Shown here one piece after another: positions 4,582 to 7,148 of a DNA stretch of 64,000 bases. Below the pieces are notes generated by a model. It was given only the letters and a program-made list of their open reading frames with translations, searched no databases and was not told the origin of the DNA. Source of the stretch: Tuwongella immobilis (lineage in GTDB: Bacteria; Planctomycetota; Planctomycetia; Gemmatales; Gemmataceae). Made by a program: the position numbers and the translations under genes. How positions within the stretch are numbered: the first letter of the stretch is position 1; each line of letters opens with the position of its first letter. Where the stretch lies: contig NZ_LR593887.1 of NCBI RefSeq assembly GCF_901538355.1, positions 3,448,920 through 3,512,919 on the forward strand. Reading direction: 5' to 3'.

Positions 4582-5274
4582 TCATCCTTGTGCCGGAGGT
4601 GTGCCGCCTTCGGTGACATTCAACGAGGTGGTGGCGGTGGCAGGCGTGGCTTCTTCGAATCCGAAGAAATCGCGCATGTATTTGTCGTATTCGCCTTGGC
4701 CGAAATCGGTGGACAGGTCGAGACGCAACTCGTTGATCACTTTGATTGACTGATTCTTGAACCAGTCGTTCCAGCAATCCGCACAGATTTCGTCGAAGAT
4801 CCGCTTGCCGATTGCGTCGGGAATCGGCGGATTCATCAATCCGCGTGCCCGCTTTCCGTATGGGCAAACCGGCCGCTTGCACTTGAAGCCGGTGCCGCCC
4901 GGTCCAATGGTATCCTCTTCTTCGGCAGCCGCGGTTTCAACTTGCGGCAGCGGTTGCCCCAACTTGACGAGCAGTTTGCCCATCTCGTCGCGCGGCATCT
5001 TGTCGCCCCGACCATGGGCCACCGTGTAGCCTTTGGTCAGCGTTTCAGTCGCTTCCGCGGTGCGATCCAAATGGATCAGCGCTTCGCCGAGCAATTGGTA
5101 CACCTTGGAGAAATTCGGCTCCAATTCCAACGTGCGGCGAAAGGATGCCACCGCTTCGTCGATCTGACCATCTTCCATCAACAACTGGCCCAGTCGAAAG
5201 TGGCCCAATTCGTTGTCGGGGTCATCGGTGGACATTTTTCGGAATTGCGCGATGCGGTCTTTCAGGGCGCTCAT
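4582..5274 (-). CDS. TPR protein fused to Fe(2+)-trafficking (YggX-like) domain
   Basis: A 230-residue protein. The ATG at 5274 is preferred to the longer frame because AAAGGA lies 7 bases upstream. Residues about 15-110 carry tetratricopeptide repeats (LGHFRLGQLLMEDGQIDEA, KVYQLLGEALIHLDRTAEA). The C-terminal part, from IPDAIGKRIFDEICADCWND to YMRDFFGFE, aligns with the small bacterial protein YggX (oxidative damage protection / Fe(2+) trafficking), including the GKRI-x-EI-x-W-x-W pattern and the INE motif. YggX is normally about 90 residues and stand-alone, so this is a domain fusion. It precedes the PSP1-type gene by 6 bases. Confidence 0.8.
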   Translation of the reverse strand: MSALKDRIAQFRKMSTDDPDNELGHFRLGQLLMEDGQIDEAVASFRRTLELEPNFSKVYQLLGEALIHLDRTAEATETLTKGYTVAHGRGDKMPRDEMGKLLVKLGQPLPQVETAAAEEEDTIGPGGTGFKCKRPVCPYGKRARGLMNPPIPDAIGKRIFDEICADCWNDWFKNQSIKVINELRLDLSTDFGQGEYDKYMRDFFGFEEATPATATTSLNVTEGGTPPAQG

Positions 5275-5366
5275 CGGTCGTTCCTTTAAGGATGCAAAAC
5301 GTCCCACCCAGCGCGAAAATCGGCTGAGAAGGACGTCGAGGACTTCAAGGGTAATGGTCGAATCCG

Positions 5367-6167
5367 TCAGTTGACGGGCGTCACCACGATCGGAAGTTCG
5401 ACGACATCCGATTTGTTAGTGAGTTTGTCGACCGCTTTCAACCGAACGCGATATTTCCCTTCCCGGTTGAACGGGAGCATGAAGCGCATCGGCACGCCGG
5501 TATCCTTCTCATCAATCCCCTTATTCACCGTCAACACCGTGGGCTTGGAGACCATATTTCCTTCGGTATCCATGGCTTCCATGGTCACTTCCAGGTTGGG
5601 TTGCTTGTCCGTTCCCGAACGCGCAAATTCCACCACAGCGAAATGCAGCCAAATGCGCTGACCGACCTGCCCCGACAGCGGAGCGGGCACTTCGGCCTTG
5701 GGATCATAGGTCGTGAACAACGACACGATGCCGAATTCGCGAGGCTTGACGGTGAAGCGTTCTTCTAGCGTCTTGCTGACCTTGGAGACGCGATCGGTGA
5801 TGGTGAGCTTCAGCACATATCCGCCCGGCTCTTGTTCCAGCGGAATGGCGACATAGGCACGAGCGGGCAGTACGGTTCCGCCCAATGGAAGATAGTCGCT
5901 GTTGTCGGCAGGTTTTTGCTCGAAAATTTTCGTCCCTTTTTCCGAGGCCACTTCCATGCCCATGCTGTACGAGACTTTGCCTGTGGCATCGACGGCAACG
6001 CCAGCAATATCAAACGACAAGAAGTAGGTGTCGCCCGGCTTCAGCGGGGCTTTGCCACGGGCCGGTCCAAATTCGCCAATCGTCGAGCGAACATTCTGGA
6101 GAGTCAACTCGCTCGCCTGAGCGGGGGCGAGCATCAACATGCCCATCAATGCCAATTCATTCAGCAT
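5367..6167 (-). CDS. Secreted hypothetical protein with beta-sandwich-like composition
   Basis: A 266-residue protein with start at the ATG at 6167, supported by AAAGGA upstream; a longer reading to 6194 lacks support. The first 18 residues (MLNELALMGMLMLAPAQA) are a signal peptide. The mature part is rich in beta-strand-type sequence (GGYVLKLTITDRVSKVSKT, YRVRLKAVDKLTNKSDVVEL) and resembles two or three Ig-like or carbohydrate-binding-like sandwiches. No catalytic motif is visible and I do not recognise a family. It is upstream of the TPR/YggX-like gene by about 90 bases on the same strand. Confidence 0.65.
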   Translation of the reverse strand: MLNELALMGMLMLAPAQASELTLQNVRSTIGEFGPARGKAPLKPGDTYFLSFDIAGVAVDATGKVSYSMGMEVASEKGTKIFEQKPADNSDYLPLGGTVLPARAYVAIPLEQEPGGYVLKLTITDRVSKVSKTLEERFTVKPREFGIVSLFTTYDPKAEVPAPLSGQVGQRIWLHFAVVEFARSGTDKQPNLEVTMEAMDTEGNMVSKPTVLTVNKGIDEKDTGVPMRFMLPFNREGKYRVRLKAVDKLTNKSDVVELPIVVTPVN

Positions 6168-6261
6168 GGCGGATCCTTTCCGAGAGCAAACCATCTCCCC
6201 GCGCGTGCGGGATTTCTCCTATTGTGCCCAGGATTCGCCATTTCGACCAGTCGAACTTGCA

Positions 6262-6727: not shown

Positions 6728-6756
6728 TTGCATTCGTCTCAAATACCGGGTACTGT
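6728..6756 (+). promoter_or_regulatory. Candidate sigma-70 promoter for the 26-codon gene
   Basis: TTGCAT at 6728-6733 and TACTGT at 6751-6756 are separated by 17 bases. The -35 element is a fair match and the -10 a weak one (3 of 6). Its value comes mostly from context: it sits in an AT-rich stretch directly before a Shine-Dalgarno, a small reading frame and a terminator-like hairpin. Confidence 0.3.
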
Positions 6757-6821
6757 ATTAATAGAGGTTGGGCGAACGTGGCCCGACGGACAGAAGGCTC
6801 GATGTCATTCGGAGGTCCCAA

Positions 6822-6902
6822 ATGAATATCGGGTTGGCCTTTTGTAAAGGAGGTGATCCAGTGGATTGTAGTAGTTCTGGGAACCAGGTGCGGCTGATCT
6901 GA
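6822..6902 (+). CDS. Candidate 26-residue small protein containing the 16S-tail complement
   Basis: An ATG at 6822 preceded by GGAGG at 6811-6815 (spacing 6) opens a 26-codon frame that begins MNIGLAFCKGGDP and ends GNQVRLI, stop TGA at 6900-6902. Codons 9-13 are encoded by AAAGGAGGTGATCCAG (6846-6861), an exact complement of the conserved 3' end of bacterial 16S rRNA and thus a perfect anti-SD target inside the frame; it would also serve a second in-frame GTG start at 6861. The ATG overlaps the stop of an upstream 7-codon frame (ATG at 6801, ATGA junction). A stem-loop with T-tract follows at 6941-6992. The two cysteines and lack of hydrophobic segment do not point to a known family. It could instead be a regulatory RNA or a remnant of rRNA sequence. 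Confidence 0.4.
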   Translation: MNIGLAFCKGGDPVDCSSSGNQVRLI

Positions 6903-6907
6903 TGCCG

Positions 6908-6924
6908 CTGACGTGCTGCGTCAG
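6908..6924 (+). repeat. Short hairpin directly after the mini-gene stop
   Basis: CTGACG (6908-6913) and CGTCAG (6919-6924) form a perfect 6-bp stem with a TGCTG loop, starting 5 bases after the stop codon of the 26-codon frame. It could protect or shape the transcript. Confidence 0.5.
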
Positions 6925-6940
6925 TGCAGCCGCGATAAAG

Positions 6941-6992
6941 AAACGGTCGGGTGACGCGATTTTCTCGCTGATCCCGGCCGTTTCTGCTTTTT
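6941..6992 (+). terminator. Rho-independent terminator of the mini-gene unit
   Basis: AAACGGTCGGG (6941-6951) pairs with CCCGGCCGTTT (6973-6983) as an 11-bp stem with one G-U pair and a 21-base loop, followed after four bases by TTTTT (6988-6992). The orientation fits a plus-strand transcript from about 6760. Confidence 0.55.
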
Positions 6993-7070: not shown

Positions 7071-7075
7071 CGAAG

Positions 7076-7148
7076 AATCCCCAAGAGGATTCGAACCTCT
7101 GTTTTAGCCCGAGAGAGCTAACGTCCTAAGCCACTAGACGATGGGGAC
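7076..7148 (-). tRNA. tRNA-Glu-like gene, anticodon probably CTC, with 8-nt anticodon loop
   Basis: On the minus strand the body reads as tRNA-Glu: acceptor GTCCCCA with TGGGGAT (one G-U pair at the end), D arm GTCT...GGAC, and T arm AGAGG-TTCGAAT-CCTCT. The anticodon stem TTAGC/GCTAA is perfect only if the loop is 8 nt (TCTCTCGG, 7116-7109); the variable region then has only three bases (AAC). Keeping a 7-nt loop breaks three of the five stem pairs. With U33 in its normal place relative to the anticodon, the anticodon is CTC (7113-7111), consistent with the Glu body; a TCT reading would lack U33. The discriminator position is U and no CCA is encoded. It may be functional, a non-standard decoder, or a decaying copy. 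Confidence 0.65.

Follow-up and report, generated by a model that had tools for sequence, protein, structure and literature searches.

What does an exact complement of the 16S rRNA 3' tail, far longer than an ordinary ribosome-binding site, do inside a short stretch of bacterial DNA that has the marks of a gene of its own? The question is raised by a locus in a 64,000-nucleotide segment of the Tuwongella immobilis genome, hereafter the window, for which an original prediction had described a compact mini-gene and had offered three readings: a small protein that contains Cys and has a second start within it, a ribosome-binding decoy RNA, or a remnant of rRNA sequence on the other strand. Here we report that the locus is a stand-alone structured RNA gene (about 6766-6992, plus strand) composed of a promoter, four hairpins (P1-P4) and a terminator, with a promoter-to-terminator transcription unit that, as read from the sequence, would measure ~225 nt.

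All parts of the gene lie on the plus strand. The promoter-like hexamers and the GGAGG are present where they had been predicted: a -35-like TTGCAT (6728-6733) is separated by 17 nt from a -10-like TACTGT (6751-6756), and a promoter-like pair precedes P1 in 32 of 53 homologs, against 2.1 expected from shuffles. P1 (6767-6787) pairs 6767-6773 with 6781-6787 and closes a GAACGTG loop whose CGTG is conserved. It is followed by P2 (6790-6845), a long stem with a variable apex, obtained by folding, whose base pairs 6790-6798 with 6837-6845. Directly after P2 comes the extended Shine-Dalgarno (SD) site AAAGGAGGTGATCCA (6846-6860), and then the conserved mini-ORF (6861-6902), which consists of a GTG start, 13 codons (MDCSSSGNQVRLI) and a TGA stop. 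The end of the ORF forms the 5' arm of P3 (6890-6933; 6890-6896 with 6927-6933), so that the stop codon falls just inside this stem, and P3 encloses the hairpin P4 (6908-6924; 6908-6913 with 6919-6924). The gene closes with an intrinsic terminator (6940-6992) made of a 12-bp stem, 6940-6951 with 6973-6984, that covaries among homologs, and a T-tract at 6988-6992. The two downstream hairpins of the original prediction are thus both there, the second with its T-tract, and are better described as P3/P4 plus the 12-bp terminator stem. In most homologs the terminator loop (A1 columns 265-275) carries a GTATCT/CTATCC-like sequence that is absent from the window's copy; such conservation is more than a simple terminator would need.

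A DNA search picked up the element in roughly a dozen family members' genomes. A covariance model built from 14 sequences (R1) was positive in 75 of 102 genomes of the order, with a best E value of 4e-32, and found one copy per genome except in one draft with two partial matches; phylum-wide it was positive in 60 of 392 genomes. R1 also matches two loci that probably belong to Phycisphaerales, in keeping with a placement in Planctomycetota. A second model (R2), for which all sequences were taken from the class's other families, recognized one copy in each of 194 of 297 class genomes and recovered the element in the window genome at an E value of 3e-4. Strict filters were applied, and the genome counts obtained with both models are lower bounds. 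At gathering score, Rfam returned a tRNA alone in the window and no other consistent family at 30 homolog loci, and Rfam 15 holds no family for the element. Our literature search found no description of it, and queries with the motif letters gave oligonucleotides only. The element is real, widespread and not in Rfam, and it is already surprising that a single-copy RNA gene present in most relatives searched should have no entry in Rfam 15.

Evidence that the gene encodes a folded RNA comes from the fold itself and from comparison among relatives. The predicted fold is 5.4 standard deviations better than that of dinucleotide-preserving shuffles. In an alignment of 69 homologs, which was fitted to the model and with which an unfitted alignment agrees for P1/P2, pairing is retained in 99.4% of the cells of P1, 91% of those of P3 and 94% of those of P4; P2 is paired in 67% of its cells, and its basal pairs covary. 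All 7 pairs of P1 are changed on both sides somewhere in this set, compensatory changes occur in 20 of the 27 pairs, and 224 cells are changed on both sides as compared with 72 in shuffles. An alternative hairpin between the P3 5' arm and the segment just after the stop, which would have given direct form to a structural switch, can pair in 82.7% of cells, with covariation not above that of shuffles.

The match to the 16S tail was then measured against the organism's own genes. It has four 16S genes, whose 3' end reads AAAGGAGGTGATCCAACCG as the reverse complement, and the exact match is 15 nt long rather than the 16 originally given. The 6.69-Mb genome has five copies of the 13-base core AAAGGAGGTGATC, of which four are antisense to the four 16S genes and one lies in this element; the reversed pattern used as a control does not occur. 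That the locus might be an antisense 16S remnant or a chance motif draws on this 15-nt identity; no further identity is found on either side of the 15 nt, with no 16S homology at the element past the SD, and the whole element is a conserved, single-copy gene throughout the class. We consequently exclude an rRNA remnant and give this pair of explanations together next to no credence.

When G-U pairs are allowed, 68 of 76 non-redundant homologs have an SD region that can pair with the 16S tail without interruption over at least 13 bases (13-17 bp), and the SD core is invariant; by the same measure none of 130 long ORFs of the window, a set that includes spurious ORFs, exceeds 10. The GTG at 6861 lies seven bases after the GGAGG of the site, which is ideal SD spacing. 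In the window's order the SD is not clearly more accessible (0.43) than with shuffled flanks (0.40). Intramolecular sequestration of the SD was also considered for this order and is unsupported there; the complementary segments ATCACCTC, CCACCTCCT and CCTCCTTT are features of other families. In families elsewhere in the class, and likewise in RNAs of the Rhodobacteraceae type (loci L069, L080, L082, L088 and others; L097, L107, L118), the 16S tail itself is copied downstream within the same RNA (ATCACCTC, CACCTCCT) and this copy could sequester the SD; it is absent from most of the window's order.

Which frame the ribosome would read is answered by conservation. The ATG-started frame of the original prediction does exist (26 codons, 6822-6899, plus TGA at 6900-6902, with AAAGGAGGTGATCCAG inside), but it is not the conserved ORF: its ATG (6822) and the GGAGG before it, together at 6811-6824, sit in the variable loop or apex of P2 and are unconserved. 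What had been called a second, internal start is the only conserved one. From this start the mini-ORF extends over about 8-15 codons in homologs, and its register is kept in several ways, none of which depends on likeness between the peptides. The distance from the start codon to P3 is 22, 25, 28, 31, 34 or 37 nt, all 1 mod 3, in 43 of 50 homologs; the first frame-0 stop falls 7-11 nt past the anchor in 46 of 50, while stops of the other frames scatter; indels are of 3n inside the ORF and of 2 or 4 nt right after the stop; and the stop codons are exchanged for one another at the same place (TAA 34, TAG 22, TGA 21).

The encoded residues behave otherwise. In nearest-neighbour comparisons synonymous changes were not in excess (31 observed, against 39.5 when changes were randomised), either inside or outside P3, in a codon test that is weak on ORFs so short and confounded where the ORF overlaps P3, and with which a role for a few peptide residues is compatible. 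The comparison of frame with RNA structure that had been suggested for the relatives therefore finds both conserved and the peptide residues not. Start, frame and stop position appear to be under selection and the residues between them apparently unconstrained, a pattern that points to probable translation of the mini-ORF; because the first three are conserved while the peptide is not, it also suggests that the act of translating, not its product, is what matters. Retention of a frame with its start and stop while the peptide drifts is a rare signature of selection for the act of translation.

We tentatively favour, without being convinced of it, a stand-alone regulatory RNA whose activity is gated by ribosomes translating its built-in mini-ORF. 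The 5' domain (P1, P2) leads straight into the full-tail SD and its ideally spaced start codon, where initiating 30S subunits would load with unusually high affinity; loading should be close to maximal because the SD matches the whole 16S tail. The ribosome would then translate the mini-ORF and terminate inside P3. Given the size of the ribosome footprint, a terminating ribosome covers the P3 5' arm, which holds the last codons, and the bases just past the stop, and translation should therefore open P3 and probably P4. The 3' arm would be exposed, together with whatever pairs with it or binds it. The RNA may accordingly exist in two states, ribosome-loaded and ribosome-free, with its fold, and hence its activity or stability, depending on whether the mini-ORF has been finished. 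It could in this way signal how plentiful initiation-competent 30S subunits are, or whether a short round of translation can be completed. Candidate outputs are base-pairing in trans, protein binding and a change in the half-life of the RNA; we infer the step from an opened P3 to an effect in the cell. If the reading is right, the element would be a directly testable case of an RNA sensing ribosome supply.

Other functions can be proposed for the same parts. An RNA that acts as a ribosome decoy or sink, titrating 30S subunits through its full-length 16S-tail match while the mini-ORF only keeps bound ribosomes cycling as lambda-type minigenes do, would account for the 13-17 contiguous pairs in 68 of 76 homologs and for the invariant SD core; minigenes can drain ribosomes or tRNAs. 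A pure decoy, however, could do without a start codon, a frame and a fixed stop. These are conserved, as are P1, P3 and P4, and titration would demand an extremely abundant RNA. The ribosome-binding half of the predicted decoy is thus supported, its kept start, frame and stop are left unexplained by it, and we consider a pure decoy unlikely. We think it just as unlikely that the gene is a small mRNA whose product, a micropeptide of about 8-15 residues, is itself functional, with a typical C-SG-NQ-VRL or C-SS-Q-RGG pattern. Its translation signals are maximal and residues do recur within families (CSGNQVRLx, CSSQxRGGTx, CTSRRGGSA), but an excess of synonymous over nonsynonymous changes is seen neither overall nor outside P3, the residues differ widely between families that keep the structure, and those residues that recur at the C terminus fall on the P3 5' arm. 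The Cys of the predicted small protein is common among homologs, not universal, and we see no constraint at the amino-acid level.

Less probable again is that the key role lies elsewhere, for example in maturation of the 16S 3' end by pairing with the pre-16S tail, and that translation only protects or clears the RNA. Full-length complementarity to the mature tail would suit such a role, as would the 16S-tail copy carried within the same RNA in other families of the class and in the Rhodobacteraceae type; against it, conservation of frame and stop exceeds what protection needs, and that copy is missing in most of the window's order. A mini-ORF that ends in a hairpin and is followed by a terminator also recalls amino-acid attenuators, and on that ground we weighed whether the RNA attenuates a gene downstream in cis or encodes its leader peptide. 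The next genes in the window are a tRNA and an opposite-strand ORF, neither of them constant nor co-directional, and the 3' neighbour varies between homologs, therefore the RNA is not the leader of a fixed operon and we hold this reading to be very improbable. Two known RNAs were also considered. An identity with tmRNA is rejected: the model RF00023 exceeds its cut-off only elsewhere, at the genome's own tmRNA (G000:C1:4309135, 142 bits), and ARAGORN finds no tmRNA in the window; the element shares with tmRNA a structured RNA bearing a short ribosome-engaging ORF and lacks the tRNA-like domain. The Rfam model for 6S RNA finds none in the genome, and the multi-stem fold with its ORF does not resemble 6S.

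Among described RNAs, a close likeness is with the CC2171 sRNA (Rfam RF01867) of Alphaproteobacteria, like our element a stand-alone RNA with AAAGGAGGUGAUCCAGUG and a terminator. Alphaproteobacterial CC2171 members contain a 20-26-codon mini-ORF (MSHC..), likewise without synonymous excess, and show the layout of GAAAGGAGGUGAUCCAGUG, then mini-ORF, then terminator; the window has AAAGGAGGTGATCCAGTG preceded by T, not G, and likewise a mini-ORF and a terminator after it. Because both carry AAAGGAGGUGAUCCAGUG, the CC2171 model repeatedly scores the element below threshold: at a gathering score of 75 bits, the element reaches 23.6 and its best homolog 31.5, compared with 83-88 for true members. 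Conversely, R1 gives about 13-25 bits on most alphaproteobacterial loci, for which the shared SD alone could account, and beyond the SD no homology of P1, P2 or P3 is detectable between the alphaproteobacterial RNAs and that of the window. Convergence is an equally possible source of the likeness. For Mesorhizobium, CC2171 is given as an sRNA (PMC5596092), and our literature search found no report of its mini-ORF or its 16S match.

A scan of public genomes for GAAAGGAGGTGATCCAGTG returned, among the matches listed, almost only Alphaproteobacteria, and 111 of the 114 distinct ORFs at these listed sites have no more than 30 codons. The alphaproteobacterial loci among them (L096-L214) are widespread mini-ORFs of 14-26 codons that stand alone and have a 16S-perfect SD. 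The MSHC.. type of 20-26 codons is true CC2171; an 18-codon type, MSRVILERGVGT.., is largely from Rhodobacteraceae (at least 38 loci), and a 14-codon type, ..KRCHLAGIAR, is from Bradyrhizobium, the latter two without an Rfam match in the examples tested. None of these types shows synonymous excess. It is possible, if rather doubtful, that bacteria of two or more phyla have dedicated single-copy RNAs that function by being translated, in which a maximal SD would load 30S subunits, a dispensable mini-peptide would be made, and the RNA would switch when the ribosome reaches a fixed stop codon within a stem; these would be peptide-independent sensors of ribosome availability, with the CC2171, Rhodobacteraceae and Bradyrhizobium RNAs as independent or very diverged examples. 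Such a scheme would help to explain CC2171, an orphan alphaproteobacterial sRNA family filed as non-coding.

Dual-function sRNAs and small mRNAs, such as rnTrpL/peTrpL and other sORFs on annotated sRNAs, resemble the element in combining a structured RNA of regulatory size with a tiny ORF, and in S. meliloti 33% of 54 unannotated translated sORFs lie on annotated sRNAs (PMC10117765). In rnTrpL, however, the ORF is part of a cis attenuator and encodes a functional peptide, whereas our element lies in no fixed operon and its peptide is apparently unconstrained. In S. aureus, start selection makes use of an SD-aSD helix that is extended on the side near the start (PMC13009471); there the extension is modest and occurs in ordinary mRNAs, while here it is a dedicated single-copy mini-ORF RNA that pairs with the whole tail.

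The surroundings of the gene have features of their own. The tRNA downstream (7075-7148, minus strand, 44 bits) is tRNA-Glu-like with an apparent 8-nt anticodon loop, and ARAGORN assigns it no anticodon. Upstream, the minus-strand ORF 4582-5307 encodes tetratricopeptide repeats fused to a bacterial Fe(2+)-trafficking domain (PF04362), and proteins whose N-terminal start is similar to its product are found upstream of the RNA in several relatives. Between that ORF and the RNA gene in the window, 5367-6194 (minus strand) encodes a 275 aa protein with no Pfam match above cut-off, and at the homologous loci L003, L013 and L015 proteins similar to it are encoded upstream of the RNA gene, in divergent orientation.
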